From Asaia bogorensis (lineage in GTDB: Bacteria; Pseudomonadota; Alphaproteobacteria; Reyranellales; Reyranellaceae): a DNA stretch of 64,000 nucleotides. Shown piece after piece: positions 6,406-46,384 of this stretch. The stretch is from contig CAMDCE010000020.1 of assembly GCA_945889625.1 (NCBI GenBank), forward strand, positions 1 to 64,000, in the 5' to 3' direction. Position 1 is the stretch's first letter, and every line of letters starts with the position of its first letter. The notes beneath the pieces are model-generated. The model did no database searches, was not told the origin of the DNA, and worked only from the letters and a program-made list of their open reading frames with translations. The position numbers were made by a program, and so were the translations under genes.

Positions 6406-8627
6406 CAGAACGTCACCTGCGCGCCGACGATGAACTGGCGGCCCGGCATTGAATTTCCGCACGAGCCGTTTTGCGCGGCAAAGTTCGCCCGGCACGGGTT
6501 CTGGTCCAGGGCGAAGAAGATCGGGTGATCGTTGATGTCGAAAACGTTGTTCACGGCCCCGAAGAGCTTCACGCCCTTCCGAAGTTCGACCTCGCCCCGC
6601 ATGTTCCAGACCCAGAACGCTTCCTTCCTGTAGACCGTGACGGTCCGGACCTGACCGGGGAAAAAGACCGGCGAAAGGGCTTCCTCGGTGTTGTACCACA
6701 TGGGTCCGCGCAGAATTCCCAGGACCTGCAGGTTCCACGGCACTTCCGTGTCGGCCTGGCCGAAGCGGGTTCCGATCGACGTCTCGTACTCGTTGATCCG
6801 CGTCGCACGATCAGTGCCGGCCGTCCTCACCACCGCACCGTAGTCGGTCATCTTGAAATTGTAGTAGCCGTTGCCGAATAGCGTCCAACGCCATGACGGA
6901 GGTGCGGGCAGCGCCAACGTCCGAAGGACATCGGCTTCAAGCTGGAACTCCAGCCCCTGGACCTGGATGTTCCCGGGATTGTTCTGGTACTGCTGGACGA
7001 CCACGCCGCCCACCGACGACTGCGTCACGGCCGAGATCCGGTTGCTGATGACGTTCTGGAACAGAGCGACGTCGAGCCGCGCGGCCGGCGCCGTGAGGGT
7101 GGCACCGACCTCGAGCTGGCTGCTGGTCTCCGGCGCAATGTTCGGATTGCCGAAGATCGTCGTGCCGATCGGCGTCCTCGTGAAGTTGGAGCCGAGCTCC
7201 GTGGCCGTCGGCGCACGAAAGCCTGAGGAGACGCCCACCCGACCGTTCAGCCAGTCGGTGACCCGCAAGGTCGATCCTACGGAGTAGGTGGTCGCCTGAT
7301 AGTTGACGCTGTCCGGGATCAGGGTCAGAGCGTTGGGCGTGGCATCGAGCGACGTCGTGCCGAAAGTCTGGCGCACGCCGCCCCGGACAATCAGGCGATC
7401 GTCGAACAGCTTCTGCGAATCCTCGGCGTACAACGCCCAAACGCTCGACGTTTCATTGTTGTCCTGCGGCGACAGCTGGGGAACGTTAACGGCAGGAGGG
7501 CCGGCGCGGAAGCGGGTGGAGCGTATCCAGCTCTTCTCCCAGTCGACCCCGAGCAACAACTCGTTGCTCGACCAGACCTTGTAGCGCGGTTGAAAGCGGG
7601 CGCCGAGGATGTCGAGCTGACGCCGGTTGTGATCCATCGTCGATCGCGTGGCGATCGAGTTCAGGTTGCTGAGCACCGATGGATTGTTGAGATCGTCGAC
7701 GTCCTGGACGTAGTAGGCCTGAAAGTAGGCATTGCCACGGCCATCCGGCGTCTTGCCGTTGTAGGTGAAATCGACCGACTAGTTGTAACGCGTGTCGAAG
7801 GCGAAAATGTTGGCGCCTGACCCGCGGAAGCCTGCATCGTAGATGCCGTCGGTACGCGCCGTCACATCGACGCGGTTGTCGTCATCGATCTGCCAGCCGA
7901 AGGCGGCCAGCGCGCCTTTCCTGTTCCAGGCGGTATTCAGTTCCGGCGCGCCGCCGCCGACCTGGTAGTTCTGCTGGCTGCTGCCCGAGAGTCCGACATA
8001 CCAGTCGACCGAACTGTGCGTCCCGCCTGTCTGAGCCTTGCCCTGGAAGTAATCCCACGAGCCGGCGCTCGCCTCGACGAGATTGCCGGGCGCCGTGCGG
8101 CCGTTCTTCAGGATGATGTTGATGACACCGCCCATGTTCTGGCTGCCGTAGACGATGGACGACGGCCCACGGACGATTTCGATGCGCTGGACGTCGGCAA
8201 GCGACAGCTTGGAGACGTTTGCCGTGCCGGCGCGGTGGCCGTTGATCAGCACCAGGACCTGGCTCTTGAAATCGCGCCCCTGTCCCTCGGTGGCTCCGCC
8301 GCGGATGTTGATCGAGGTCTGCCCGGGGGACCATTCACTCATGAAGCCCACGGCGTTCTCGGCCAACAGCTCGGTCACCGACTTGGCGGAGGAGTGCTTG
8401 ATCCTGTCCTGATTGATGACCTGCACCGTGCTGTAGATGTTGGTCACGGGCTCGGGATAGCCCGTCGCCGTGACGACGACATCGGGCATCATGACCGGCG
8501 ACGGGTCGGGCTGCTGAGGCGTGGGAGGTTGAGGGGGAGGCTGTTGGGCACTGGCAGGCGACAGCCAGATCGCCGTCGAGATCAAGGCGGCACTCGCCAT
8601 GCCGAAACGCAGATATGACTTGCTCAT
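6405..8627 (-). pseudogene. btuB: TonB-dependent receptor (BtuB-like) interrupted by one in-frame amber codon
   Basis: Outer-membrane gated beta-barrel for corrinoid uptake. From ATG 8627 (RBS GGGGAAG five bases upstream; ATG overlaps the stop of the methyltransferase gene) the protein has a signal peptide, a Pro/Gln-rich stretch, a TonB box-like PDVVVTATGYPEP, a plug with SINIRGG--G and IEIVRGPSSIVYGS, then barrel strands. After FDTRYN a TAG (7779-7781) stops the frame; the same frame resumes at once with SVDFTYNGK and runs to a normal barrel end, closing in the aromatic strand FIVGAQVTF at 6408. Without the TAG it would be about 740 residues, the usual length. Either a recent inactivation or a base error. 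The 3' half could only be made by reinitiation or suppression. Confidence 0.86.
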
Positions 8628-32974: not shown

Positions 32975-33856
32975 TCACTCGGCAGCCTGCTTGGAGTCCT
33001 GTCCCAGCACCGTGAAAAAAGAGGCCGACTTGGGCTGCTTGGGCAGTTCGACCAGGCCTTCGGTGAGCCGGGCGAAGCGCGCTTCCTTGCCGCGCACGAT
33101 GCGACCCTCGTTGAGGCTCGGCATCGGGTTGCGCGCGATCGGCACGGCGTCGGCCGCGGCATAGACACAGATGTAGAGGCCGCGCGACTTGTCGGCCCCG
33201 TTGGCCGCCGAGCCGTGCAACAGCTTGGTATGCATCAGGCAGACGCTGCCGGCCTTGCCCAGGCAGGGAACGGATTTCGCCAGCGCCTGCTTTTCCTCGT
33301 CGGCGGCGACGCCGCCGGTGAAGCGCTCGCCCTCGAACAGCGACAGCATCGGTCCCTTGTGCGAGCCCGGCACGACGGTCAGGCAGCCGTTGCTTTCGTC
33401 GATGTCGTCGAGGAACAGCAGCGCCGTCACCACGTCGTCGTTGGTGTGCGGCGTATAGGCGAAGTCCTGGTGATAGGCGACTTCGGTCTTGGCGCCCGAA
33501 AGCTTCAGGTTGATCTTGCAATGGTGGAACTTCACGTCAGGTCCGATCAGGTCGGCCACCATCTCGACCGTGCGCGCGTCGAGCATGACCTCGCGATAGG
33601 CGTCGGAAATGTCCGAGGGATTGTTGACGCGCCTGAGCGCCGGCTTCGCAGCACTATGCTCGGCGCCCATGTCGAAGCGCGGCCGACCGTCGATCGTCGG
33701 CGGCCCGAAGGGCTCGGCGTGGGCGCGGCTCTGTTCGACCCACGAGGCGATCTCGGAATTGAGGGAAGCCAGCTGCGCTGGCGTCACGGCATCGCCGACC
33801 ATGAGGTAGCCGTCCCGCCAGAACGCGTCGTACTGCTCCTGGGTCAGAGTCTTCAT
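32975..33856 (-). CDS. Phytanoyl-CoA dioxygenase family (PhyH) protein
   Basis: 293 residues. Fe(II)/2-oxoglutarate oxygenase with facial triad His129-x-Asp131 (YHQDF) and distal His214 (LLHGSAAN), and the 2OG-binding Arg near 225. It hydroxylates an acyl-CoA or small acid next to the carbonyl. It starts one base after the crotonase stop and is the end of a four-gene operon (ABC ATPase, CoA transferase, crotonase, PhyH). Confidence 0.9.
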   Translation of the reverse strand: MKTLTQEQYDAFWRDGYLMVGDAVTPAQLASLNSEIASWVEQSRAHAEPFGPPTIDGRPRFDMGAEHSAAKPALRRVNNPSDISDAYREVMLDARTVEMVADLIGPDVKFHHCKINLKLSGAKTEVAYHQDFAYTPHTNDDVVTALLFLDDIDESNGCLTVVPGSHKGPMLSLFEGERFTGGVAADEEKQALAKSVPCLGKAGSVCLMHTKLLHGSAANGADKSRGLYICVYAAADAVPIARNPMPSLNEGRIVRGKEARFARLTEGLVELPKQPKSASFFTVLGQDSKQAAE

Positions 33857-33857
33857 G

Positions 33858-34655
33858 TCAGCGTCCCTTGAATTGGGGCCGGCGCTTTTCCATGAACGCG
33901 CGGCGGCCCTCGATGTAGTCCTCCGAATCGAAGCACTTCTTCACCAGTCCGCTGAGGCGGGGGAAGTCGGGCTCGCCGTCGAGCCGCGTCAGTTCCTCGA
34001 TGGTGCGCTTGGCGGCGTGCATGGTGAGCGGCGCATTCTCACCGATCATCCTGCAGTAGTTGTCGACGTAGGAGTCGAGCTCGGCGTCGGGCACGACCCG
34101 GTTGACCAGCCCCATACCGAGAGCCTCCTGGGCGGAGAAGTGCCGGGCGGTGAAGAAGATCTCCTTTGCAGTCGATGGCCCGACGAGATCCATCAGGATC
34201 TTGAGACCGGACGCGCGATAGCCGAGCCCAAGCCGCGCCGCCGGCACGCCGAACTTGCTGTTGTCCGAGGCGATACGGATGTCGCAGAGCAGCGACACCG
34301 CCATCCCGCCGCCGATGCAGTAGCCGCGGATTCGGGCGATCGTCGGCTTGGAGCATTTGTTGAGGCGCGCGTTGGCGATCTCGCCGATCTTGTCGTAGTA
34401 GGCCACCTGCTCGGGCGTGTTGCGCGCCTTCTCGAACTCCGAAATGTCGGCGCCCGAAACGAACGCTTTGTCGCCCGCGCCGGTGACGACGACGACGCGA
34501 ACCGCCGGGTCTTTCTCGAAGTCGTCGAGGATGACCGGGATCGCCTCCCACATGTCGGTCGAGGTGGCGTTGTGCTTGTGCGGCTTGTTGAAGACGAGCC
34601 GGCCGACCGGCCCCACCTTCTCCGCGATCATGTTGGGCGTCGGGCTGATGTTCAT
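33858..34655 (-). CDS. Enoyl-CoA hydratase/isomerase (crotonase) family protein lacking both usual catalytic Glu
   Basis: 265 residues from ATG 34655 (AATGAGGAGC upstream). Crotonase fold: GRLVFNKPHKHNA, KAFVSGADISEF, and the oxyanion segment RIRGYCIGGGMAVSLLCDIRIAS. In true hydratases the Glu after GGG-x (GGGCEL) and the Glu in PE-x-x-LG are catalytic; here the residues read GGGMAV and GVPAARLGLGY, so both are changed. The product may be a different crotonase activity (isomerase, dehydratase, decarboxylase). Paired with CoA transferase and PhyH. Confidence 0.87.
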   Translation of the reverse strand: MNISPTPNMIAEKVGPVGRLVFNKPHKHNATSTDMWEAIPVILDDFEKDPAVRVVVVTGAGDKAFVSGADISEFEKARNTPEQVAYYDKIGEIANARLNKCSKPTIARIRGYCIGGGMAVSLLCDIRIASDNSKFGVPAARLGLGYRASGLKILMDLVGPSTAKEIFFTARHFSAQEALGMGLVNRVVPDAELDSYVDNYCRMIGENAPLTMHAAKRTIEELTRLDGEPDFPRLSGLVKKCFDSEDYIEGRRAFMEKRRPQFKGR

Positions 34656-34677
34656 AAGATGCTCCTCATTTCGGACC

Positions 34678-34700
34678 CCTCTCCCCCGCTGGGGGAGAGG
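34678..34700. terminator. Perfect GC hairpin inside the CoA transferase-crotonase intergenic gap
   Basis: CTCTCCCCC-GCT-GGGGGAGAG, a 9-bp perfect stem with 3-base loop, no U tract on either strand. It may attenuate transcription or stabilise mRNA between the two genes. Similar CTCCCC/GGGGAG hairpins lie at 41344-41365 and 43667-43689. Confidence 0.55.
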
Positions 34701-34708
34701 AATATGGT

Positions 34709-35887
34709 TCAAATCACGCCGCGCTTGCGGAAGCCTTCGATCGCGGCGGCGGCGTAGCCGGCTTCCGTCAGCACCGCATCGGTGTGCTCACCCTGCTCCG
34801 GCGTCGCGGTCTTCATCTCGAACTGCGTGCGGCTCATGTTGATCGCCTGGCCGATCAGTTCGATCGTTCCGAGCTTGGGATGCTCGACCGGATGCGCCAT
34901 CTTGAGGTGCTTAACCTGCGGGTCGTCGAACATCTCGTTCATCTTGTAGATCGGCCCGGCCGGCACACCCGCCTTGTTCAGTTTCTCTACCCACTCGGCG
35001 CTGGGCGCCCCGGCGAGCCGCTTATCGATCTCCTCGTTCAGCACGTCGCGGTGCTTGACCCGGGCCTTGGCAGACGAGAAACGCTCGTCAGTCAGCAGCT
35101 CCGGCGCCTTGATACTGTCGCAGAAGCGCTTGTAGATGTGGTCGCCCGACGCCGCGATGTTGATGTAGCCATCGCTGGTCTTGAACACGCCAGTCGGGAT
35201 TCCGGTCGGATGGTTGTTGCCTGCCTGGCCCGGCACGTCCTTGGCGATGGTCCAGCGCGCGGCCTGGAAGTCGCACATCGAGATCATCGCCTGCAGCAGC
35301 GAGCTCGACACCCACTGACCTTGCCCGGAAACCTCGCGCTCCAGCAGGGCGATCAGGCAGCCGATGGCGCAGTGCAGCCCCGCGCCCACGTCGGCGACAG
35401 CGATGCCGGCGCGGACCGGGCCGCCGCCCGGTTGTCCGGTGACCCACATGATGCCGCCCATGCCCTGGGCGATCTGGTCGAAGCCAGCGCGCTCGGCATA
35501 GGGCCCGTCCTGGCCGAAGCCGGAGATCGATCCCAGGATGATGCGCGGATTGACCTTCTTCAGGCTCTCATAGTCGATGCCGAGCCGGAATTTCACATCG
35601 GCGCGATAGTTCTCCACCACCACGTCGGCCTTCTCCACCAGCTTCATGAAGATGGCCTTGCCCTCGGGCTCCTTGAGGTTGAGCGTGATCGAGCGCTTGT
35701 TGCGATGCAGGTTCTGGAAGTCGGGCCCGTGGCGCGGCCCGCCCATGTCCATCTCGCCGGCCGAAAGCGGCATCTCGACCTTGATGCAGTTGGCGCCCCA
35801 GTCGGCGAAATAGCGCACGGCAGTCGGACCGGCGCGCACCCGCGTCAGGTCGAGCACGGTGTAACGGGCAAGCGGTCCTGCGGTCAT
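34709..35887 (-). CDS. CaiB/BaiF family CoA transferase
   Basis: 392 residues, class III CoA transferase. YTVLDLTRVRAGPTAVRYFADWGA (usually VLDLTRVLAGP) at the start, GADVIKVE-type NCIKVEMP, RNKRSITLNLK, VVENYRADV with the conserved ENYRP-like segment, and GQDGPYAERAGFDQIAQG. It moves CoA between carboxylic acids. It lies 22 bases after the ABC ATPase gene and before the crotonase, a context recalling carnitine-type (CaiB/CaiD) chemistry, though the substrate is not shown. Confidence 0.9.
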   Translation of the reverse strand: MTAGPLARYTVLDLTRVRAGPTAVRYFADWGANCIKVEMPLSAGEMDMGGPRHGPDFQNLHRNKRSITLNLKEPEGKAIFMKLVEKADVVVENYRADVKFRLGIDYESLKKVNPRIILGSISGFGQDGPYAERAGFDQIAQGMGGIMWVTGQPGGGPVRAGIAVADVGAGLHCAIGCLIALLEREVSGQGQWVSSSLLQAMISMCDFQAARWTIAKDVPGQAGNNHPTGIPTGVFKTSDGYINIAASGDHIYKRFCDSIKAPELLTDERFSSAKARVKHRDVLNEEIDKRLAGAPSAEWVEKLNKAGVPAGPIYKMNEMFDDPQVKHLKMAHPVEHPKLGTIELIGQAINMSRTQFEMKTATPEQGEHTDAVLTEAGYAAAAIEGFRKRGVI

Positions 35888-35909
35888 GTCTCACTCTGCT
35901 GTGTGGTTG

Positions 35910-36971
35910 CTACTCGACACGTACCATGTCGGCGGGATCGATCTCCAGCCAGACCCGGCTGCCGGGCGCGAAAACCGTATTCGGCCCGGTCGACACCCGC
36001 AAAGGCTTCGAGCCGCTGAGCGGTCGGGCCTGGTAATCCCAGTATTCGCCGAGATAGGCCCGCCCGGTGATCTCGGCCTCGACGGCAAGGTTGGCGCCGT
36101 TGGATCGCTGAACTGCGAGACCGACGGCCTGTGGCCGCAGGGAATAAAGAAGTGTGGCGGCGCCCACCGCTCCGTTGAGCGAGGCTGCGGACACGGTGAA
36201 ACCATCGAATTTCACGTCGCTGCCCTGTCGATTGCCTTCGAGGAAATTGGTGCGGCCGATGAAGCCGGCCACAAACCGGCTCTTCGGCCGGCCGTAGAGC
36301 ACGTGCGGGGTGTCGATCTGCTCGATGCGGCCCTTGTTCATCACCACGATGCGATCCGAGGTCACCATTGCTTCGGACTGGTCATGCGTCACATAGACGG
36401 TGGTGATCTTGAATTCGTCGTGCAGGCGGCGGATCTCGAAGCGCATCTCTTCCCGCAGGTTGGCGTCGAGATTGCTGAGCGGCTCGTCGAGCAACAACAC
36501 CTCGGGCTCGACGACGATGGCACGGGCGAGCGCCACGCGCTGCTGCTGGCCGCCTGACAGCTCGCCGGGATAGCATCCCCTCAGGCCGCGCATCTGCACG
36601 ACGTCGAGGATCTTGTCGACCCGGCTCTCGATCTCGGCCCGCGACAGCTTGCGCACAATCAAACCGAAGCCGACGTTTTCCCCCACCGTCATGTTCGGCC
36701 AGATGGCGTAGCTCTGGAATATCATCGACATGCGCCGCTTCTCGGGCGGCACGACGGCCGAGGGCGTGGAGATGGTCTGGCCGTCCAGCTCGATCGTCCC
36801 GGCAGTGGGCGGCATGAAACCGGCGATCAAGCGCAAGGTCGTGGTCTTGCCACAGCCGGACGGGCCCAGCAGCGAGACGAACTCGCCTTTGACCAGTTCG
36901 AGCGAGAAATCGGTGACCGCCTCGAAAGCGCCAAAGCTTTTGCTGACGCCGCGGAGAATAAGTTTGCTCAT
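35910..36971 (-). CDS. ABC transporter ATPase of the PotA/UgpC (spermidine/iron/sugar) class, orphan
   Basis: 353 residues from ATG 36971. Walker A GPSGCGKTTT near 38, MIFQSYAIWPNMTVGENV, signature LSGGQQQRVALARA, Walker B LLLLDEPLSNLD, THDQSEAM, then a C-terminal TOBE-like regulatory region (SLRPQAVGLAV, GRAYLGEYWDY). No permease or binding-protein gene is in this operon, so either the remaining subunits are elsewhere or the ATPase is shared. First gene before CoA transferase, crotonase and PhyH. Confidence 0.88.
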   Translation of the reverse strand: MSKLILRGVSKSFGAFEAVTDFSLELVKGEFVSLLGPSGCGKTTTLRLIAGFMPPTAGTIELDGQTISTPSAVVPPEKRRMSMIFQSYAIWPNMTVGENVGFGLIVRKLSRAEIESRVDKILDVVQMRGLRGCYPGELSGGQQQRVALARAIVVEPEVLLLDEPLSNLDANLREEMRFEIRRLHDEFKITTVYVTHDQSEAMVTSDRIVVMNKGRIEQIDTPHVLYGRPKSRFVAGFIGRTNFLEGNRQGSDVKFDGFTVSAASLNGAVGAATLLYSLRPQAVGLAVQRSNGANLAVEAEITGRAYLGEYWDYQARPLSGSKPLRVSTGPNTVFAPGSRVWLEIDPADMVRVE

Positions 36972-37847: not shown

Positions 37848-39194
37848 ATGGCCGCCGTTCCCGTCACCGCCGAAATCGCCAAGAAGGCCGCCCATCTCGC
37901 GTGGAGCGACCTGCCCGAGGACCTGGTCGAACGCACCAAGCAGTGCCTGCTGGACTGGTTTGCCGTGACGGTCGCCGGCGCCCAGGACGAATTGACGGAC
38001 ATCCTCGTGCACGAAGCGCTCGACGATGGCGCCAAGGGCGCCGCCACCCTGGTCGGCCGCAGCGAAAAGGTTCTGCCCTCGGTGGCCGCCATGATCAACG
38101 GCGCGGCCAGCCACGCGCTCGACTACGACGACGTCAATTTCGCCATGGGCGGCCATCCGACGGTCACCGTCGTCCCCGCCCTGCTGGCGCTCGGCGAACA
38201 GATGAGGGCCTCGGGCCGCCTGTTCATCGAAAGCTTCGTGGCAGGCTACGAGACGTCGGGCCGGGTCGGACGCCTGGTCTCACCCAGCCACTACCAGAAA
38301 GGCTTTCATGTCACCGGCACGGTCGGCTCCTTCTCGGCGACCGCCGCAGCCGGCCGCATGCTGGGTCTCAGCGACAGGCAGCTCGCCGTCGCCTTCGGGA
38401 TCGCCGCGACCCAGGCCGCCGGGCTGAAATCCAACTTCGGCACCATGTGCAAGCCACTGCATGCCGGCACAGCGTCGGAGCACGGCCTGCGCGCTGCGCG
38501 GCTCGCCGCCAAGGGCTTCACGGCGCGCAGCGATTCGCTGGAATGCGACCAGGGCTTCGCCTCCTCGCAGAGCGATCACCTCAACGCCGAGGCGGCGCTC
38601 GGCGAACCGCCGGCCGGCTGGCACCTGCGCAACAACCTCTTCAAGTATCACGCCGCCTGCTACCTGACGCATTCTCCGATCGAGTGCGCCAAGGAGATCC
38701 GGCTCAAGAGCAACTTCCCACCGGAGCGGGTGAAGAAGATCCTGCTACGCATCGATGCCGGCGCCGACAAGGTCTGCAACATCCCCAATCCGACCACTGG
38801 ACTGGAGGCCAAGTTCTCGCTGCGCCAGACCGTGGCCATGGCGCTCACCGGCGTCGATACGGCGGCGCTCGGTTCCTACAACGCGGCTTCTACGCAGGAG
38901 CCGCGCATGAAGGCGCTGCGCGACAAGATGGAGATTGAGTTCCGGCCGAACTGGGCGCATTCGGTCGCCGAAATGGCGATTCAGCTCGACGACGGCAGCA
39001 CGCTCGAAGCCAAGCACGACTCAGGCATCCCGTGGACCGATGTCGCCAAGCAGCGCCGGGCGCTCGAGACCAAGTACGAGAGCCTGGTCACGCCCGTCCT
39101 GGGCGCCGCCGGCACCAAGCGCCTGCACGACGCCATCGAACGCATCGACAGCCTGACCGACATAGGCGAACTCGCCCGGGCTTCGGCCAAGTAG
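37848..39194 (+). CDS. MmgE/PrpD family protein
   Basis: 448 residues with a perfect AGGAGG upstream. Long helical N-terminal domain (LVERTKQCLLDWFAVTVAGA, HALDYDDVNFAMGGHPTVTVVPALLALGE, SFVAGYETSGRVGR, HVTGTVGSFSATAAAGRMLGL) and the C-terminal alpha/beta lid. The family includes 2-methylcitrate dehydratase, cis-aconitate decarboxylase and iminodisuccinate epimerase. With downstream MaoC, CoA transferase and CitE-type lyase genes, action on a C5/C6 branched dicarboxylate (for example a racemase, dehydratase or decarboxylase step) is likely. Confidence 0.9.
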   Translation: MAAVPVTAEIAKKAAHLAWSDLPEDLVERTKQCLLDWFAVTVAGAQDELTDILVHEALDDGAKGAATLVGRSEKVLPSVAAMINGAASHALDYDDVNFAMGGHPTVTVVPALLALGEQMRASGRLFIESFVAGYETSGRVGRLVSPSHYQKGFHVTGTVGSFSATAAAGRMLGLSDRQLAVAFGIAATQAAGLKSNFGTMCKPLHAGTASEHGLRAARLAAKGFTARSDSLECDQGFASSQSDHLNAEAALGEPPAGWHLRNNLFKYHAACYLTHSPIECAKEIRLKSNFPPERVKKILLRIDAGADKVCNIPNPTTGLEAKFSLRQTVAMALTGVDTAALGSYNAASTQEPRMKALRDKMEIEFRPNWAHSVAEMAIQLDDGSTLEAKHDSGIPWTDVAKQRRALETKYESLVTPVLGAAGTKRLHDAIERIDSLTDIGELARASAK

Positions 39195-39202
39195 GAGAAG
39201 GA

Positions 39203-39688
39203 ATGTCGGAGGATTTCAGGAGCCGTGCCCGCCTCGTTGCCAAAGGCAACCGCTACGAGGATTTTGAACTGGGCCGCGTCTTCCGCCATCACTGGGGCCG
39301 CACCATCACCGAGTCGGAAAGCACCCTCTTCTCGACGCTGACGCTGCACTTCAATCCGCACTATTTCAACGCCGCCTACGCCCGGGCGCACGGCCATCCC
39401 GGCCTGGTCGCCAATCCACTACTGGTTTTCACCACGGTATTCGGCATGACGGTGGAGGATCTGAGCGAAGGCGGCGGGCCTTTCCTCGGTGTCAATGAGC
39501 TTACCTACCACCAGCCCGTCTATCCGGGCGATTCGTTGCGCGCCGAATCGATCGTGCTCGACCGCCGCGTCTCCGATTCGCACAAGGGCTTCGGCATCGT
39601 CACTTGGCAAACAATTGGCTTCAACCAGCGCGAAGAACGCATCATCGACTTCAAGCGTACCAACCTCGTGCGTCTCAGGAATCCATAG
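39203..39688 (+). CDS. MaoC-like hot-dog dehydratase, first of two
   Basis: 161 residues, GGAGAAGG upstream. Single hot-dog domain: GNRYEDFELGRVFRHHWGRTITE, then TLHFNPHYFNAAYA. In R-specific hydratases this site reads GDxNPxH with the catalytic Asp and His; here the Asp position is His (LHFNPH). Later LGVNELTYHQPVYPGDSLRA and FKRTNLVRL are normal. The altered site is seen in mesaconyl/branched-acyl-CoA-type MaoC proteins in my recollection. It starts eight bases after PrpD and is followed by the dehydrogenase within two bases. Confidence 0.87.
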   Translation: MSEDFRSRARLVAKGNRYEDFELGRVFRHHWGRTITESESTLFSTLTLHFNPHYFNAAYARAHGHPGLVANPLLVFTTVFGMTVEDLSEGGGPFLGVNELTYHQPVYPGDSLRAESIVLDRRVSDSHKGFGIVTWQTIGFNQREERIIDFKRTNLVRLRNP

Positions 39689-39689
39689 A

Positions 39690-40850
39690 ATGACTTTTCT
39701 CACCGAAGAACGCCGCATGATCCAGGAGCAGGCGCGCGAGTTCACCCTGAACGAGGTCCTGCCCGTCGCCAACAAACTCGACCCCGAGAAGGGCGACATC
39801 CCGATGGCGCTGCGCGACAAGATGGCCGAGCTCGGCTATTTCGGCATCCTGATCCCCGAGCAGTACGGCGGCTTGGGCCTCGGCTGCTCGGAATACTGCC
39901 TCGTCACCGAAGAGCTGTCGCGCGGCTGGATGAGCGTGGCCTCGCTGATCGCGCGCGGCAACCTGCTGATCGGCTCTCAAATGATGAGCGAGGAGCAGCG
40001 CGGCCGCTATCTCCCGCGCATGGCCAAGGGCGAGTTCCTCGGCGCCTTCTCCATGTCGGAGCCCAATGCCGGCTCTGACATCTCCAACATCTCCTGCCGC
40101 GCCAAGAAGGACGGCGACAGCTACCTGATCAGCGGCAACAAGTACTGGTGCACCTTCGCCGACGGTGCCGACTTCCTGATCATCATCGCCCGCACGTCGG
40201 ACGCGCCTCCCGGCAAGCGCCACATGGGTCTCTCGATGTTTTTCGTCGAGAAGAAGCGCGGCGAATTGCCGAAGGGCTGCAACGGCGCGCCGATTCCCAA
40301 GATCGGCTATTTCGGCTGGAAGACCTGGGAACTGGCCTTCGACAATTTTCGCGTCACCGCAGCGGACATGATCGGCGAGGAAGGTCACGCCTTCTATTAT
40401 GCGACCTCGGGCCTCGAGACGGCCCGCGCCCATACCGCGGCACGCGCCATCGGGCTCGCCCAGGGCGCGCTGGACGATTCGGTCCAGTATGCCAATGACC
40501 GCAAGCAGTTCGGCCGCTCGATCTCGGACTTCCAGGCGATCCGCTTCAAGATCGCCGACATGGCGACCCAGATCGAGGCGGCGCGCCAGCTCATGTATTT
40601 CGTCTGCGAGCAGATCGACACCGGACAGCGCTGCGACAAGGAGGCCTCGATGGTGAAGCTGTTCGCCTCGGAAATGGCCGAGCGCGTGACCAGCGAGGGC
40701 ATCCAGATCCATGGCGGCGCCGGCTACACCACGCTGCACGCCGTCGAGAGGCACTGGCGCGACGCCCGCCTGACCAAGATCTTCGAGGGCACATCGGAGA
40801 TCCAGAAGCGCATCATTTCCGATCGCCTGCTCGGGCGGGGGAAGAATTGA
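39690..40850 (+). CDS. Acyl-CoA dehydrogenase
   Basis: 386 residues. N-terminal helical domain with GILIPEQYGGLGLG, FAD motif FSMSEPNAGSDI and YWCTFADGADFLII, and C-terminal ADRKQFG-type YANDRKQFGRSISDFQ, IQIHGGAGYT and FEGTSEIQKRII with the catalytic-base Glu366. It would oxidise a saturated acyl-CoA to the enoyl-CoA. In an itaconate-type locus the partner enzyme oxidises methylsuccinyl-CoA; that is inference. Stop overlaps the next ATG (TGATG). Confidence 0.92.
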   Translation: MTFLTEERRMIQEQAREFTLNEVLPVANKLDPEKGDIPMALRDKMAELGYFGILIPEQYGGLGLGCSEYCLVTEELSRGWMSVASLIARGNLLIGSQMMSEEQRGRYLPRMAKGEFLGAFSMSEPNAGSDISNISCRAKKDGDSYLISGNKYWCTFADGADFLIIIARTSDAPPGKRHMGLSMFFVEKKRGELPKGCNGAPIPKIGYFGWKTWELAFDNFRVTAADMIGEEGHAFYYATSGLETARAHTAARAIGLAQGALDDSVQYANDRKQFGRSISDFQAIRFKIADMATQIEAARQLMYFVCEQIDTGQRCDKEASMVKLFASEMAERVTSEGIQIHGGAGYTTLHAVERHWRDARLTKIFEGTSEIQKRIISDRLLGRGKN

Positions 40851-41329
40851 TGAAGGTCTCAGCGCTCACCGGCAAGAACAACTACTTCGAGGACTTCACC
40901 GTCGGCGAGGTGCTGAAGCACGCACGCGGCAAGACCGTCGAACCGCTCGAGCAGGTCTGGATCACCAACGTCACGATGAACACGGCCGAGGCGCACTTCA
41001 ACGAGCACCTGACCAAGTCGACCAACTACGGCCAGCGCCTGGGCTTCGGCGGCGTCACGATCTCGATGTGCATCGGCCTTGCCGCCGAGGACACCGCCGA
41101 GAACGCCCTGATGGAACTCGGCATGGACAAGATCAGGCTGAAGGGCCCGCTGTATCACGGCGACACGCTCTATTGTTACAGCGAGGTCCTGGAGAAAACC
41201 GATGCCAAGCAGGTCGACGCCGGCATCGTGCGCTTCAAGCACTATGGAGTTAACCAGGACGACAAGCACATCTTCGAGGGCGTACGCACGGTGCTGATCA
41301 AGCGGCGCAGTCACTGGGGAAACAAGTGA
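40850..41329 (+). CDS. MaoC-like hot-dog dehydratase, second of two
   Basis: 159 residues from ATG 40850, which shares a base with the upstream stop. N-terminus NNYFEDFTVGEVLKHARGKTVE; active-site region VTMNTAEAHFNEHLTKS, again with His where R-hydratases have Asp (HFNEH). GFGGVTISMCIGLAAEDTAENAL and LYHGDTLYCYSEVL complete the fold. The two MaoC proteins share little identity by eye and may form a heterodimer or act on successive intermediates. Confidence 0.87.
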   Translation: MKVSALTGKNNYFEDFTVGEVLKHARGKTVEPLEQVWITNVTMNTAEAHFNEHLTKSTNYGQRLGFGGVTISMCIGLAAEDTAENALMELGMDKIRLKGPLYHGDTLYCYSEVLEKTDAKQVDAGIVRFKHYGVNQDDKHIFEGVRTVLIKRRSHWGNK

Positions 41330-41343
41330 CGACATCTCTTATC

Positions 41344-41365
41344 CCTCCCCTGTCTTCAGGGGAGG
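41344..41365. terminator. Perfect GC hairpin after the second MaoC gene
   Basis: CCTCCCCTG-TCTT-CAGGGGAGG, 9-bp perfect stem, 14 bases past the stop; then a smaller hairpin GTCACCGT-TAT-ACGGTGAC at 41367-41385. No U run follows. Could be a processing or partial termination site within the cluster. Confidence 0.5.
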
Positions 41366-41400
41366 TGTCACCGTTATACGGTGACGGAAAGGTTCATCAG

Positions 41401-41480
41401 TCTCCGACCCCCTCCGCCCTGCGGGCACCTGCGCGTTTAGCCGCTCCGCGGCTAAACGCTGATCCGCAGACGGGGGAGGA
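41401..41480 (+). repeat. GC-rich intergenic repeat carrying a ribosome binding site, copy 1
   Basis: CCCCCTCCGCCCTGCGGGCACCTG, then GCGTTTAGCCGC-TCC-GCGGCTAAACGC as an inner hairpin (41432-41459), then GACGGGGGAGGAA ending just before the ATG of the next gene. A closely related unit lies at 43752-43835. The final GGGGGAGGAA is a strong Shine-Dalgarno sequence for the CoA transferase. Confidence 0.72.
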
Positions 41481-41489
41481 AAGGCTCCA

Positions 41490-42710
41490 ATGACCGAAGT
41501 CCTCGGGGCGCTCGACGGAGTCCGGATCGTCGACCTGACCCAGATGCTGGCGGGCCCCTACTGCACGATGCTGCTGGCCGACCAGGGTGCGGAGATCATC
41601 AAGGTCGAGCCGCTCGACGGCGACCATACGCGGATCATCGGGCCCTACCACGACGACGACAGGCTGCGCTCGTTCGGCGGTTATTTCGCCTCGATCAACC
41701 GCAACAAGAAGTCGATTGCCATCGACCTCAAACGACCGCAGGGCCGCGAGCTGGTGATGCGGCTGTGCGACGGCGCCGATGCCGTGGTCGAAAACTATCG
41801 CGGCGGTGTGATGGATCGCCTCGGCCTCGGCTACGAGACCCTGCACGAGCGCTATCCGACCCTCGTTTACGCCACCATCCGTGGCTTCGGAGACTGGCGC
41901 ACCGGCAGGAGCCCCTATACCGACTGGCCGGCCTACGACGTCGTGGCCCAGGCCTTTGGCGGCGTCATGGCGATCACCGGTCCGGACAAGGACACGCCGA
42001 TGAAGGTCGGCCCCGGCATCGGCGACCTGATGCCCGCAACCATGTGCGCCCTGGGCATCGTCAGCGCCATCTTCCGCGCCCACAAAACCGGACGCGGCCA
42101 ATTCGTCGATGTCGGCATGGTCGACGCCATTCTCTCGATGTGCGAGCGCATCGTGCACCAGCACGCCTACACCGGCGGCGTGCCGGTGCCGGAGGGCAAC
42201 CACCATCCCCTGCTCTGCCCATTCGGCATGTTCCCTGCCAGGGACGGCTTCATCACCATCGCCGCCCACGCCGACACGCACTTCCCGATCCTCTGTCGAT
42301 TGATCGGCAGGCCGGAGATGGCGGCCGACCCGCGCTTCGTCGATGTGCAAAGCCGGCGCGCACACCAGGACGCGATCATCGACGCGGTCTCGTCCTTCAC
42401 GCGCCGGCGCACCAAGCAGGAGCTGCTGGCTCACCTCGGCGGCCAGGTGCCGTTCGCGCCGGTCAACGACGTCCGCGACGTCTTCGCCAACCCGCATTTC
42501 GCCGCCCGCGACATGGTGGTCTCCGTCCCACATCCGGGTCTAGATCGCGAGACCCGGGTCGCCGGCGTGGCGATCAAGATGACCGAAACGCCGGGCCGCG
42601 TGCGCCATCGCGCGCCCTTGCTGGGTGAGCATACGGACGAGTATCTGACTTCCCTTGGCCTCGGTAGCGCAGAAATTGCGCGCTTGCGAGGCGAGAAGAT
42701 TGTCGCCTGA
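41490..42710 (+). CDS. CaiB/BaiF family CoA transferase of the C5-dicarboxylate-like cluster
   Basis: 406 residues. Class III CoA transferase: VRIVDLTQMLAGPYCTMLLADQGAEIIKVE with the usual catalytic Asp region later (VGPGIGDLMPATMCALGI), RNKKSIAIDLKRPQG, VVENYRGGVMDRLGLGYE. In Pseudomonas itaconate loci and in the 3-hydroxypropionate bicycle an enzyme of this family charges itaconate or shifts CoA on mesaconate. Translation is driven by the repeat-borne GGGGGAGGAA. Exact acids unproven. Confidence 0.9.
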   Translation: MTEVLGALDGVRIVDLTQMLAGPYCTMLLADQGAEIIKVEPLDGDHTRIIGPYHDDDRLRSFGGYFASINRNKKSIAIDLKRPQGRELVMRLCDGADAVVENYRGGVMDRLGLGYETLHERYPTLVYATIRGFGDWRTGRSPYTDWPAYDVVAQAFGGVMAITGPDKDTPMKVGPGIGDLMPATMCALGIVSAIFRAHKTGRGQFVDVGMVDAILSMCERIVHQHAYTGGVPVPEGNHHPLLCPFGMFPARDGFITIAAHADTHFPILCRLIGRPEMAADPRFVDVQSRRAHQDAIIDAVSSFTRRRTKQELLAHLGGQVPFAPVNDVRDVFANPHFAARDMVVSVPHPGLDRETRVAGVAIKMTETPGRVRHRAPLLGEHTDEYLTSLGLGSAEIARLRGEKIVA

Positions 42711-42741
42711 CGACAAAGACAGTTGCCTGAGGAGATGTGAC

Positions 42742-43656
42742 ATGACCGACCGTCCACGCCGCGCTCGCCGCGTCCAGCTCTCGACGCCCGGCTCCAGCGA
42801 GAAGATGATGCAGAAGGCGTCGGAGTCGAAGGCCGACCATGTCTTCCTCGACCTCGAGGATGCCGTGGCGCCGAGCCAGAAGCGCGAGGCGCGCAAGAAG
42901 ATCGTCGAGGCGCTGAAGACGCTCAACTGGAAGGGCAAGACGATCTGCGTGCGCATCAACGATCTCACCACCGAGTATGCCTTCGAGGATATCATCGAGG
43001 TGGTCGAGGGCGCAGGCGAGCATCTCGACACCATCATGATGACCAAGGTCATGGTCCCGGCCGACGTGCTGTTTGCCGACAAGCTGCTGCATCAGCTCGA
43101 AAAGAAGCTGAAGCTCAAGCGCCGCATCGGGCTGGAGGCGCTGATCGAGGAGGTCGAGGGCATGCAGAATGTCGATGCCATCGCCAAGTGCACGCCGAGG
43201 CTGGAGTGCCTGGTGTTCGGCATGGGCGACTTTTCGGCCTCGATGGGCGTCACCAACAAGAATGTCGGCGAGTCCGACGGCTACCCCGGCGACATCTGGC
43301 ACTATGCCCGCTTCCGCCTGGTCATGGCCTGCCGCGCCGCCGGCATCGACCCGGTCGACGGGCCGTTCGCCGACTTCAAGAATCCCGACGCCTATCGCGA
43401 GGAATGCCGGCGCTCGATGATCCTGGGTTGCGTCGGAAAGTGGGCGATCCATCCCTCGCAGATCGAGCATGCGCTCGAGATCTATTCGCCCAAGCCCGAG
43501 GACATCGCCCGCGCCCGCAAGCTCGAGAAGGCCTATGCCGAAGCGGAGGCCAAGGGCCTGGGCGCGATCAACATCGACGGCATCATGGTCGACGTCGCCT
43601 CGATCCGCATCCTGCGCAACACGGTGCTGAACAAGGCGGACCTCTACGGGATGTGA
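42742..43656 (+). CDS. HpcH/HpaI-CitE family lyase, malyl-CoA/citramalyl-CoA lyase-like
   Basis: 304 residues, TGAGGAGATG upstream. TIM barrel with PGSSEKMMQKA, DHVFLDLEDAVAPSQK (metal-linked region), RINDLTT, GLEALIEEVEGM with the metal Glu, FGMGDFSASMG with the metal Asp, and VGKWAIHPSQIEHA. The C-terminal pattern RRS-x-LG-x-VGKWAIHP and DPWHYA-like YPGDIWHYAR match the Mcl1 (L-malyl-CoA/beta-methylmalyl-CoA lyase) branch better than short CitE subunits. It would split a 3-hydroxy-dicarboxyl-CoA to acetyl- or propionyl-CoA plus glyoxylate or pyruvate. Confidence 0.9.
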   Translation: MTDRPRRARRVQLSTPGSSEKMMQKASESKADHVFLDLEDAVAPSQKREARKKIVEALKTLNWKGKTICVRINDLTTEYAFEDIIEVVEGAGEHLDTIMMTKVMVPADVLFADKLLHQLEKKLKLKRRIGLEALIEEVEGMQNVDAIAKCTPRLECLVFGMGDFSASMGVTNKNVGESDGYPGDIWHYARFRLVMACRAAGIDPVDGPFADFKNPDAYREECRRSMILGCVGKWAIHPSQIEHALEIYSPKPEDIARARKLEKAYAEAEAKGLGAINIDGIMVDVASIRILRNTVLNKADLYGM

Positions 43657-43666
43657 CGCATCTTCT

Positions 43667-43689
43667 CCTCCCCCGTTTTACGGGGGAGG
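43667..43689. terminator. Perfect GC hairpin after the lyase gene
   Basis: CCTCCCCCG-TTTTA-CGGGGGAGG, 9-bp stem, 10 bases past the stop. Resembles the hairpin at 41344. No long U run; termination or mRNA end protection is inferred. Confidence 0.55.
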
Positions 43690-43751
43690 ATACAGGAGGG
43701 GGAAAGCATCAGACGATGCGCATGACCCGTACGGATCAAGAGCCCTCGAGT

Positions 43752-43835
43752 TGCCCTCCCCCTCCGGCCCTCTGGGCCACCTGGGCGCTTTTGACCGCTT
43801 CGCGGCCAAAACGCCGACCCGTACGACGGGGGAGG
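43752..43835 (+). repeat. GC-rich intergenic repeat carrying a ribosome binding site, copy 2
   Basis: CCCTCCCCCTCCGGCCCTCTGGGCCACCTG is split here: CCCCCTCCGGCCC-TCT-GGGCC, then GCGCTTTTGACCGC-TTC-GCGGCCAAAACGC as an inner hairpin, then CCCGTACGACGGGGGAGGAA before the MFS gene. Same order of parts as 41401-41480, with different stem sequences but conserved pairing and the same GGGGGAGGAA end. Confidence 0.72.
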
Positions 43836-43848
43836 AAGTGAAAAGGAC

Positions 43849-45027
43849 ATGAAACGCGCATTCATCCCTGTCGCCTCGATGCTGGGCATACAGGTGATGA
43901 TCTCGTTCAGCGTCCTGTCGCTGGGCGTGATGATGCCGGCGGTGGCACGCGATCTGGCGATCGACCCCAAGCTGATCGGCATCTTCACCGCCATCATCTA
44001 TGCCGTCGCAGCCACCGTCGCCCTGGTAGCGGCCGGCCCGATCGTGCGGGTGGGTGCGGTGCGCGTCTGCCAGGCCGCGTTGCTGATGGGCGCCATCGGG
44101 CTTGCGCTCAATTCGGTGTCGCTGGTCGCGGCGACGGTCGCGGCCGTGCTGTTCATCGGCGCGGCCCAAGGTCCGATCAATCCGGCGTCCGCCCACATCC
44201 TCGCCCAGCGCGTGCCGCGCGAGTATTTCGGCATGGTCTTCTCGGTAAAGCAGACCGGCACGCCGATCGGCTTCGCGCTGGCGGGCGTGGTCTTTCCTTT
44301 CCTGCTCGAACTCGTCGGCTGGCGCGGCGCCAGCCTCGTGGGCGCCGCCTTGCTGGTGCTGGCGGCCATCATCGTCGAGCCGCTCCGCCCAAGACTGGAC
44401 GTGATCGCGGTCGCCGGCCGGCCGCCGGTCGGTATCTGGCGTTCCATCCGCTTCGTGCTGGCTCACTCGCAGCTCCGGGTGCTGGGCTGGTCGGCCTTCG
44501 TCTATGTCGTCGCCCAGCACACCTTCACCTTCTACCTGGTGACCTATCTCTATGAGCATTGCGGTCTCAGCATCGCCCGCGCCGGCTTCCTGCTGTTCCT
44601 GTCGCAGACCGCCGGCACCGCCGTGCGCCTGGTGAGCGGCGGCATGGGCGACCGCATCCCGCGCATGCAGGTTCTCGGCTGGACCGGCATCGGCATGACC
44701 GCGGGCTGCATCGCCACCGGCCTGCTGCAGCCGGACACGCCGTTCTGGCTGATCACGCTGGTCGTTGTCGGCTACGGCTCGGTGGTGATCAGCTGGAACG
44801 GCACCTCGCAGGCCGAGTTCGCCCATCTCTCGCCGCCCGGCGAGGCGGCCGCCGTCGCCGCGGTGCAGACCGCACTTGCCTTCTCAGGCGCCGTGTTCGG
44901 CCCGCCGCTGTTCGCGCTGATCGCCTCGGCGCTCAGCTATCGCATGGCCTTCTTCGCGGTCGCCGCCTGCGTTCTCCTCGCCGCGCTATGGCAGCTCGTC
45001 GCCAGCCGCCGACCGGTACCGGCCTAA
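43849..45027 (+). CDS. MFS transporter
   Basis: 392 residues with twelve hydrophobic segments. NHGP-like GAAQGPINPASAHILA near 105, loop REYFGMVFSVKQTGTPIG after TM4 (a motif of the OFA/NNP-like carboxylate branch), and SGGMGDRIPRMQ in the middle loop. Position after the lyase and the shared repeat suggest it imports the cluster's organic acid. Direction of transport not shown. Confidence 0.86.
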   Translation: MKRAFIPVASMLGIQVMISFSVLSLGVMMPAVARDLAIDPKLIGIFTAIIYAVAATVALVAAGPIVRVGAVRVCQAALLMGAIGLALNSVSLVAATVAAVLFIGAAQGPINPASAHILAQRVPREYFGMVFSVKQTGTPIGFALAGVVFPFLLELVGWRGASLVGAALLVLAAIIVEPLRPRLDVIAVAGRPPVGIWRSIRFVLAHSQLRVLGWSAFVYVVAQHTFTFYLVTYLYEHCGLSIARAGFLLFLSQTAGTAVRLVSGGMGDRIPRMQVLGWTGIGMTAGCIATGLLQPDTPFWLITLVVVGYGSVVISWNGTSQAEFAHLSPPGEAAAVAAVQTALAFSGAVFGPPLFALIASALSYRMAFFAVAACVLLAALWQLVASRRPVPA

Positions 45028-45183
45028 GGTTCCTTCATTCCCGCGATCCGCACGACCGCACTCCACTTGCAGCAAATTGAGCGCTCTCATCCGGTTGCCC
45101 TGCAAGGTTTCCATTCGGTAAGTACCTGCGCGCGCCAGGCAACCGGTCTACAATGCGAACAGCGATTGCCAGGGAGGATAATC

Positions 45184-45861
45184 ATGAAACTCTATACCCA
45201 TCCTGTTTCCACGGCCTGCCGGCCGGTGATGCAGTTCATCGCCGACAACAACATCGCGTGCGAGATGGAAGTCGTCGACATCCTGAAGGGCCAGCACTAC
45301 GAACCCGCCTACAGCGCGAAGAACCCCAACCGCCTGGTGCCGATGCTGGAGGATGGCGACTTTCGCCTGACCGAGAGCGCCTCCATCCTGCGCTATCTTG
45401 CCGAGAAGACCGGTTCAGCCGCCTATCCGAAGGACCTCAAGCAGCGCGCCCGGGTCAACGAGGCAATGGATTGGTTCAATTCCAATTTCTACAAGGACTT
45501 TGGCTACGGCCTTGTCTATCCGCAGCTCTTCCCCCATCACAAACGGCCGGACGAAAAGGCCCATTCCGGGACGATCGCCTGGGGCCAGGACAAGTCGAAG
45601 GTCTGGCTACAGGTGCTGAACGATCATTGGCTGGGCGGCGGCAAGCAGTATCTGGTCGGTAATGAGATCACCATCGCCGACTATCTCGGCTCGGCGATCA
45701 TGAGCATCGGCGAGTTGATCCATTGCGATCTGTCGAAGTATCCCAATGTTCAGCGCTGGATCGGCAACGTGAAAAAGCAGCCGAACTACGAGAAGATCAA
45801 CGACGCAGCCTTCAACGGCTTCGCCGCCTCGACCAAGGGCAAGACCTGGCAGACGGTGTAA
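45184..45861 (+). CDS. Glutathione S-transferase family protein
   Basis: 225 residues, CAGGGAGG upstream. Thioredoxin-like N-domain (MKLYTHPVSTACRPVMQFIA, with Ser as likely activating residue, NPNRLVPMLEDGDFRLTESASILRYLAEKTG binding the glutathione gamma-Glu) and a helical C-domain with ITIADYLGSAIMS. Theta-like GSTs. It precedes a VOC protein by 16 bases, so the two may detoxify a reactive intermediate together. Confidence 0.9.
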   Translation: MKLYTHPVSTACRPVMQFIADNNIACEMEVVDILKGQHYEPAYSAKNPNRLVPMLEDGDFRLTESASILRYLAEKTGSAAYPKDLKQRARVNEAMDWFNSNFYKDFGYGLVYPQLFPHHKRPDEKAHSGTIAWGQDKSKVWLQVLNDHWLGGGKQYLVGNEITIADYLGSAIMSIGELIHCDLSKYPNVQRWIGNVKKQPNYEKINDAAFNGFAASTKGKTWQTV

Positions 45862-45877
45862 CGACAGGAGAGCGACC

Positions 45878-46384
45878 ATGATCAAGGGCCTGCACCACAA
45901 CGCCTATCGCTGCCGCGACTCGGAAGAGACGCGGAAGTTCTACGAGGACTTCCTCGGCCTGCCGCTGGTCAACTCCTTCAAGATCGAGGAGACCATGACC
46001 GGCCGCAAGACGGGCGCCGGCGTCCTTCACAGCTTCTATCAGCTCGACGACGGCTCGTGTCTGGCCTTCTTCGACGCGCCCGACATGCCGTTCGAGTTCA
46101 AGCAGCAGCACGACTTCGATCTGCACATCGCGCTCGAGGTCGAGCCCGAGGCGCTCGACAGGATGTTCGCCAAGGGCAAGGCGGAGAGCCGCGAGGTCCG
46201 CGGCGTCTCCGACCATCGTTTCATCCGCTCGATCTACTTCCGCGATCCCAACGGCTACGTGATCGAACTCACGGCCAAAGTCCCCGGCTGCGAGAGCGAG
46301 ATGGATCCGGCGAAGAACAAGGCGCGCGACATCCTGGACAAGTGGCAGGCCGCCAAGAGGCACCCGTCGCGAACGGCAGCCTGA
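45878..46384 (+). CDS. VOC superfamily (glyoxalase/ring-cleavage dioxygenase fold) protein
   Basis: 168 residues. Two beta-alpha-beta-beta-beta modules: LHHNAYRCRDSEETRKFYEDFLGLPLVNSFK (metal His near 6-7) and FDLHIALEVEPEALDRMF, ending SIYFRDPNGYVIELTAK with the metal Glu. A VOC protein is also part of the Pseudomonas itaconate locus. A C-terminal tail of 35 residues is extra. Reaction unknown. Confidence 0.88.
   Translation: MIKGLHHNAYRCRDSEETRKFYEDFLGLPLVNSFKIEETMTGRKTGAGVLHSFYQLDDGSCLAFFDAPDMPFEFKQQHDFDLHIALEVEPEALDRMFAKGKAESREVRGVSDHRFIRSIYFRDPNGYVIELTAKVPGCESEMDPAKNKARDILDKWQAAKRHPSRTAA

Follow-up and report, generated by a model that had tools for sequence, protein, structure and literature searches.

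The stretch of DNA analysed here (hereafter the window) comprises 64,000 nucleotides of contig CAMDCE010000020.1 from assembly GCA_945889625.1, labelled Asaia bogorensis and placed in the Reyranellaceae. A gene cluster at 37848–46384 raises the question of which C5 dicarboxylate it degrades, through which CoA ester, and to which products. An earlier reading of the letters alone (the sequence-only reading) likened the cluster to the itaconate locus PA0878–PA0883 of Pseudomonas aeruginosa, while allowing for a distinct variant acting on methylsuccinate, mesaconate, or citramalate. Nine open reading frames (ORFs) were called in this region, all on the + strand, and the PrpD, MaoC, acyl-CoA dehydrogenase, class III CoA transferase, CitE-type lyase, MFS, glutathione S-transferase (GST), and glyoxalase-fold families were each recovered above their Pfam gathering scores; the families named in that reading are confirmed by these calls, which add a GST-like gene that it did not mention. 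Together with the comparisons described below, these data suggest that the first six genes (37848–43656) probably form a complete pathway converting a C5 dicarboxylate, most likely methylsuccinate, to propionyl-CoA and glyoxylate via C1-CoA esters.

In the proposed route, an imported C5 dicarboxylate would feed the pathway, with methylsuccinate as the most likely candidate, though the substrate is the least certain step. The MmgE/PrpD protein (37848–39194; PF03972 and PF19305 over cut-off) would interconvert (S)- and (R)-methylsuccinate, and the class III CoA transferase (41490–42710), a predicted succinyl-CoA:methylsuccinate/mesaconate CoA transferase, would move the CoA of succinyl-CoA to the C1 carboxyl of methylsuccinate. 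The acyl-CoA dehydrogenase (ACAD; 39690–40850) would then oxidize methylsuccinyl-C1-CoA to mesaconyl-C1-CoA; mesaconate itself could enter one step later than methylsuccinate. Two MaoC proteins, MaoC1 (39203–39688) and MaoC2 (40850–41329), are predicted to act as a two-subunit hydratase producing beta-methylmalyl-CoA, which the CitE-superfamily lyase (42742–43656) would cleave to propionyl-CoA and glyoxylate. ACAD and MaoC2 overlap by a single base, MaoC2 starting on the final base of the ACAD stop. The individual reactions, their C1 regiochemistry, the substrate, and the heteromeric hydratase are predictions, drawn from which genes are present and conserved, from the families in which their products are placed, and from active-site residues.

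A maximum-likelihood tree of 45 lyases places the 27 cluster lyases inside the malyl-CoA-lyase group (100/98), in agreement with the malyl-CoA-lyase type assigned to this protein by the sequence-only reading. The cluster lyases form a clade (89/100) whose fork with canonical Mcl1 (5ugr, 4l9y) has support 85/79, and they stand apart from CLYBL (which we take 5vxc to be), RipC, and the Pseudomonas-type lyases. Residues here and below were counted in near-full-length genes only (MaoC, 140–200 aa; + strand ACAD, 370–430 aa; PrpD, 380–500 aa; lyases from the chosen list). The Pro and Trp typical of malyl-CoA lyases are retained in 27/27 cluster lyases, as well as in 8/8 further ones; the L151 lyase has no residue at D299, where its contig ends. 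The Pro/Trp pair has been related to the poor fit of pyruvate (PMC3832036). A divergent second lyase adjoins the cluster in four loci (two Variovorax, Cupriavidus, and L160), where it groups with a protein (C6) of the window's own genome (100/99). These second lyases carry the Glu described as characteristic of malyl-CoA thioesterases (PMC3832036), and Rhodococcus koreensis has one nearby; such a thioesterase-type neighbor suits the conversion of glyoxylate to malate.

The two single-domain MaoC proteins noted by the sequence-only reading correspond to opposite halves of a mesaconyl-CoA hydratase. MaoC1 matches the N-terminal half of PF19315 (positions 14–169 of 353) and MaoC2 its C-terminal half (225–353 of 353), and the same division is seen against the haloarchaeal hydratase model. 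Against two solved hydratases, MaoC1 scores 65 and 59 bits on domain 1 and 10 and 9 bits on domain 2; MaoC2 scores 71 and 67 bits on domain 2 and 37 and 47 bits, respectively, on domain 1. Thus, rather than the one-protein, two-hot-dog-domain architecture of Mch and MeaC, there are two proteins, each equivalent to one PF19315 half. The malate-binding residues and the catalytic Asn/His pair of MeaC were taken from PMC10164722. Among the former, S79 and R142 are kept in 30/30 MaoC1 proteins and F71 in 28/30; in MaoC2, N226, H231, and G249 are kept in 29/29, while Y248 is replaced by Phe in 27. The HFNxH motifs given in the sequence-only reading do occur (HFNPH in MaoC1, HFNEH in MaoC2), but their description as standing in place of D-x-N-x-H is off register for MaoC2: alignment to a solved mesaconyl-CoA hydratase places the catalytic Asn/His just upstream of HFNEH, as N-T-A-x-x-H, in 29/29 MaoC2 proteins. 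MaoC1 is the N-terminal half, and the catalytic pair named in PMC10164722 sits in the C-terminal half. An odd catalytic motif in MaoC2 is accordingly rejected in view of the conserved N226/H231-equivalent pair. MaoC1 and MaoC2 look like one split enzyme, to judge from these matches. One-domain bacterial homologs of haloarchaeal Mch have been reported without a partner (PMC5592240); a split hydratase would explain them, with the missing half encoded next door, here by MaoC2.

Among NCBIfam models, NF041294 (mesaconate CoA transferase) is the best match of the window CoA transferase by far, at 460.5 bits. Eight cluster transferases score 395–549 bits on this model, as compared with 145–266 bits for a set of five class III proteins from outside the cluster that includes two Pseudomonas-type transferases (194 and 200 bits). 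The characterized haloarchaeal mesaconate CoA transferase, as described in PMC5592240, yields only the C1 ester; it acts slightly better on methylsuccinate than on mesaconate, poorly on itaconate, and with no activity on citramalate. This last result makes citramalate, one of the entry substrates suggested by the sequence-only reading, an unlikely one.

The window ACAD (386 aa) has its best solved match in 6es9, which has the same residues at the same positions as the methylsuccinyl-CoA dehydrogenase (Mcd) of P. denitrificans in PMC5798300. Six Mcd residues (Ser248, Arg252, Thr418, Arg421, Phe534, and Glu535) are conserved in 27/27 cluster ACADs and in 7/7 plasmid-locus ACADs. The Ser/Arg/Thr/Arg set occurs in 0/24 non-Mcd control rows (21 distinct, three duplicates). 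Pseudomonas-type ACADs instead have Glu at helix-G position 421 and Ala-Pro at 534–535, presumably the isovaleryl-CoA-dehydrogenase-like arrangement suited to a beta-branched C4 ester, whereas the window ACAD has Arg421 and Glu535. As a separate observation, a stand-alone ACAD paralog of the same genome (C39; L075:9113–10279) is 69% identical to the window ACAD and has Ala at the Mcd methyl-pocket position; second ACAD copies similar to it recur in the genus.

The window PrpD is one of 20 cluster PrpDs, out of 22, that make up a single clade (100/100) separate from the isomerases of Pseudomonas type. Other PrpD subtypes occur in L150 and L152. The nearest solved structures are a B. subtilis IRG1 protein and iminodisuccinate epimerase. 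Residues H85, D88, H99, H150, and K198 of the latter are retained in 22/22 cluster PrpDs and Y145, the second-base Tyr, in 21/22; the K266 column is not cleanly aligned. At the D88 position, cluster rows have Asp and Pseudomonas-type rows Glu. The cluster PrpD is therefore best described as a predicted epimerase by mechanism, not by descent.

The C1-CoA route is favored over the C4-CoA route of Pseudomonas because of the lyase grouping, the MaoC halves, the nearest transferase model, and the retained Mcd residues. The glutamate mutase beside two relatives, the thioesterase-type neighbors, the TRAP genes of plasmid versions, and the distribution of the lyase in the genus also speak for the proposed pathway. 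The sequence-only reading had proposed lyase phylogeny and transferase comparison as its own test; neither protein lands with unrelated proven substrates, the lyase falling with malyl/beta-methylmalyl-CoA lyases and the transferase nearest the mesaconate model. The same two results support its suggestion of a distinct variant for methylsuccinate or mesaconate, and make its itaconate label unlikely.

The cluster is not peculiar to this genome. A scan of named genomes with the MaoC1 alignment returned 307 relatives, of which the best 80 loci were kept; selection by MaoC1 makes the co-occurrence figures conditional on MaoC1, and a gene was counted only if it passed an identity threshold and lay no more than 8 kb from MaoC1. 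In unannotated loci, genes come from a codon-usage-based caller, and their starts may be off. ACAD, MaoC2, and the lyase were each found in 55/55 loci with enough flanking sequence, the CoA transferase in 52/55, and PrpD in 50/55; for the 16 of these loci that are not Reyranella-like, the corresponding figures are 16/16 each, 13/16, and 13/16. The grouping of these genes is not due to chance. Near-identical loci include those of Reyranella massiliensis, R. aquatilis, R. soli, and Enhydrobacter aerosaccus. The full set of six enzymes is shared by Alpha- and Betaproteobacteria, and variants of it occur in Gammaproteobacteria (L158 and L164, without the CoA transferase), in Rhodococcus (rearranged versions), and in one haloarchaeon, Halomarina sp. 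PSR21, where the MaoC genes are also split.

The same six-gene order is present on annotated plasmids of Tistrella mobilis, Variovorax boronicumulans, and Pseudosulfitobacter, and TRAP transporter genes lie directly 5′ of the six genes on the Tistrella, Pseudosulfitobacter, and Paracoccus plasmids. On plasmid p9 of Paracoccus sp. SCSIO 75233 (L218; 17,834 bases), a LysR gene, three TRAP genes, and the six enzymes make up 10 of the 19 annotated features, the remainder being two recombinases, ParA, two DNA-binding proteins, and four hypotheticals. A plasmid of Sphingomonas panacis has both MaoC genes, the transferase, and the lyase together, with ACAD further on. The plasmid versions, the TRAP linkage, and the wide recurrence mark the module as self-contained and mobile, and point to an imported dicarboxylate as the probable substrate.

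Several relatives have additional genes around the cluster. In L147, an acyl-CoA mutase is encoded as a large subunit (558 aa) and a separate small one (135 aa) at 4400–6485, divergent from a cluster without PrpD, and 3-isopropylmalate dehydratase/aconitase-type subunits lie upstream of the haloarchaeal version (L216:255–2017). Variovorax (L155:1419–6684) and Cupriavidus (L156:15684–20445) have an ABC transporter with a two-part permease, along with a class V aminotransferase, next to the cluster; these genes are 73–80% identical between the two loci and lie on different sides of the cluster. Two loci are probably mis-binned or mislabeled: L160 is titled Akkermansiaceae, though its lyase nests among Betaproteobacteria, and L104 is titled Rhizobium, with a MaoC1 91% identical to that of the window.

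A number of observations weigh against the pathway as proposed. Scores stay below curated cut-offs: the CoA transferase falls short of the 700 bits of NF041294, and MaoC1 and MaoC2 score 118 and 78 bits on NF041625 (haloarchaeal Mch), as against a cut-off of 560. NCBIfam ranks RipC_Ccl first for the lyase (165 bits vs. a cut-off of 375; haloarchaeal malyl-CoA lyase, 109), RipB_Ich for MaoC2 (96 bits vs. 78 for haloarchaeal Mch), and acryloyl-CoA reductase for ACAD, all below cut-off; the two-domain Mch of the same genome is likewise best on RipB_Ich (114 vs. 69 bits). MeaC N85, which touches the ligand via its backbone (PMC10164722), is Phe in 30/30 MaoC1 proteins. The window ACAD lacks the roughly 170-residue N-terminal extension of Mcd, its Arg376 (Phe in the window protein) and Glu380, and its Ala285 methyl pocket; across the 27 cluster ACADs, position 285 is Phe in 15 (the window included), Ala in six, Ser in four, and Val in two. 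In R. sphaeroides Mcd, Leu, Ile, or Phe at the equivalent of Ala285 abolished activity (PMC5798300). PrpD lies outside the Msi clade of the Pseudomonas and Cupriavidus enzymes. Distant full loci lack the CoA transferase in 3/16 cases and PrpD in 3/16, and no PrpD was found in the Sphingomonas panacis plasmid cluster. Neither a canonical Mcd nor a malate synthase was found in the window's own genome (94% complete).

Some of these features would be accommodated if the same chemistry acted on another 2-substituted succinate, such as ethylsuccinate or a longer alkylsuccinate, to give glyoxylate and a longer acyl-CoA, an alternative that we regard as unlikely. R. sphaeroides Mcl1 Ala167 is Gly in 27/27 cluster lyases, which would widen the pocket and could let in substituents bulkier than methyl; most cluster ACADs have lost the methyl pocket of Mcd, residue 285 being F, A, S, V, Y, or T; and Cupriavidus sp. 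LEh25 and Variovorax sp. UMC13 each have a Pseudomonas-type methylsuccinate cluster in addition to a window-type one, a coexistence that could mean different substrates. However, L159, which is linked to glutamate mutase and for which a methyl-bearing intermediate is expected, has the same lyase Gly, and the closest model for the CoA transferase is that of the mesaconate enzyme.

Conversion of methylsuccinate to glyoxylate and propionyl-CoA would also overlap with the ethylmalonyl-CoA pathway, and the genome data allow a different emphasis, which we consider rather improbable: that the cluster is mainly anaplerotic, its lyase (and, in species lacking Mcd, its dehydrogenase) serving that pathway on acetyl-CoA-yielding substrates, with uptake of an outside acid secondary. 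The window's own genome contains Ccr, as well as the two-domain Mch, which lies beside a thioesterase-type lyase; no full-length isocitrate lyase and no second Mcl1-grade lyase were found in this 94% complete assembly. In the genus, where most genomes are incomplete and lyase and Mcd figures refer to the matches listed, the cluster lyase is present in 36/37 genomes (the own genome included), Ccr in 32/37, canonical Mcd in 27/37 (the own genome being among the 10 without), and both Ccr and Mcd in 26/37. The cluster lyase is present in 25 of these 26, and only G036 has another Mcl1-grade lyase; as a positive control, 7/8 other genomes with Ccr and Mcd have, among the matches listed, a lyase 43–48% identical to that of the window. 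Because it is nearly always the only Mcl1-grade lyase in genomes with Ccr and Mcd, the cluster lyase is likely the Mcl1 of Reyranella. A mainly anaplerotic role for the whole cluster nevertheless sits poorly with the free-acid epimerase, the CoA transferase, and the plasmid TRAP transporter, all of which fit an imported free acid, and with the module being the main cargo of a 17.8-kb plasmid.

Degradation of itaconate or methylsuccinate as in Pseudomonas, via C4-CoA esters and citramalyl-CoA to acetyl-CoA and pyruvate, has little probability here. In its favor, the enzyme families of the window cluster are those of the P. aeruginosa and C. necator clusters (PMC12290011), RipC_Ccl and RipB_Ich are the best (sub-threshold) models for lyase and MaoC2, and the lyase Pro/Trp pair is compatible with citramalyl-CoA, since the C. 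aurantiacus lyase, which has both residues, cleaves it (PMC3832036). It is rejected as the primary interpretation in view of the lyase and PrpD clades, the transferase scores (460 vs. 194–200 bits on the mesaconate model), the ACAD residues at 421 and 534–535, and identities of only 29–33%. Those identities compare the window proteins with their four counterparts in the Pseudomonas-type clusters of LEh25 and UMC13 (L188 and L194), which run lyase-PrpD-transferase-ACAD with a FAS1-like dehydratase gene at one end. The likeness to PA0878–PA0883 put forward by the sequence-only reading therefore holds for gene content and not for close orthology, and the window-type and Pseudomonas-type clusters look convergent in content.

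Two sister loci from betaproteobacterial metagenome-assembled genomes may connect the proposed C1-CoA pathway to glutamate. In L159:3114–9165 and L161:2333–8384, MaoC2, CoA transferase, lyase, an IclR-type regulator, and MaoC1 occur with GlmL and adjoin glutamate mutase subunits E and S, the mutases being 99–100% identical between the loci; in L159, GlmL and both mutase subunits exceed curated cut-offs. Neither PrpD nor ACAD was found within the fetched stretch of either locus, and glutamate mutase homologs were found in no other fetched flanks. This gene set fits a route from glutamate through methylaspartate and mesaconate to mesaconyl-C1-CoA, and a bacterial methylaspartate route is possible, though methylaspartate ammonia-lyase was over its cut-off in 0/6 genomes searched (the own genome and both glutamate mutase genomes included), which counts against this extension. 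Taking these results jointly, we tentatively suggest a portable mesaconyl-C1-CoA hub, consisting of CoA transferase, split hydratase, and lyase, in bacteria and haloarchaea. With PrpD, ACAD, and TRAP added, the hub may constitute a second, convergently assembled methylsuccinate pathway to glyoxylate; its lyase may have replaced Mcl1 in Reyranella; and with glutamate mutase it may be the bacterial counterpart of the haloarchaeal methylaspartate cycle. This combined scenario is less probable than the six-gene pathway on its own.

The remaining three genes of the region appear peripheral: a predicted MFS carrier and possible importer (43849–45027; PF07690), a GST-like protein (45184–45861; GST_N/GST_C), and a VOC/glyoxalase-fold protein (45878–46384; PF00903). 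The sequence-only reading had included the VOC protein and the transporter in the cluster; none of the 27 loci whose MaoC1 is less than 78% identical has a close homolog of the window MFS, GST, or VOC protein (30% identity or more, within 8 kb), which rules these three out as core parts, and close homologs of the carrier occur only in Reyranella-like loci. Other members of these families do appear near some distant clusters: in L162 the lyase is followed by a VOC gene, L147 has a glyoxalase-like gene, L140 and L146 have GST genes, and downstream of the Tistrella cluster lies an MFS gene whose product is 33% identical to that of the window. Between the lyase and MFS genes, a G+C-rich palindrome-like repeat with three mismatches between strands lies at 43667–43689, with a related copy at 43818–43836. 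On the minus strand at 32975–36971, a divergent operon encodes a PhyH dioxygenase, an enoyl-CoA hydratase-like gene, a second CaiB-type CoA transferase, and an ABC ATPase; in relative L081, an ABC permease and a binding protein lie between the ATPase and the methyltransferase, and the window has no room there for these two.

If correct, the widespread C1-ester cluster would represent a second solution to methylsuccinate use, one in which methylsuccinate and mesaconate carbon enters metabolism as glyoxylate and propionyl-CoA. It would also offer a testable answer to the identity of Mcl1 in Reyranella, and enzymes for C5-dicarboxylate engineering. A literature search, with most subscription papers outside its scope, listed no paper on a C1 methylsuccinate cluster standing by itself or on a mesaconyl-CoA hydratase divided between two proteins, and nothing linking Reyranella with the ethylmalonyl-CoA pathway.

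Three known systems are closest to the six-gene cluster. The P. aeruginosa locus comprises ich, mcd, mmgE, ict, ccl, and a glyoxalase-family gene. In this species, as in C. necator, PrpD isomerizes methylsuccinate and ACAD oxidizes methylsuccinyl-C4-CoA, the two supplying itaconyl-CoA hydratase and citramalyl-CoA lyase; the same work describes C4 esters as the catabolic route in pseudomonads and regards methylsuccinyl-C1-CoA as a dead end in C. necator (PMC12290011). The window cluster shares with these a PrpD epimerase, CoA transferase, ACAD, MaoC-type hydratase, and CitE-type lyase, with methylsuccinate the likely substrate, but differs in the clades of its proteins, in its predicted C1 rather than C4 esters, and in its two single-domain hydratase proteins; the Pseudomonas/C. 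necator cluster yields pyruvate and acetyl-CoA, whereas glyoxylate and propionyl-CoA are predicted for the window. The lower part of the ethylmalonyl-CoA pathway (Mcd, Mch/MeaC, and Mcl1) has the same three predicted reactions, with related dehydrogenase, hydratase halves, and lyase; the window cluster is instead a single operon with a CoA transferase and epimerase, a split hydratase, and Gly for lyase Ala167, and its dehydrogenase lacks both the N-terminal extension and the methyl pocket of Mcd. The haloarchaeal methylaspartate cycle (Mct, Mch, and Mcl; PMC5592240) provides the nearest transferase model and a two-domain Mch model matched by the MaoC halves, and two betaproteobacterial relatives of the window cluster adjoin glutamate mutase. 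The window cluster itself, by comparison, has no glutamate mutase, misses the curated cut-offs, and adds PrpD and ACAD.

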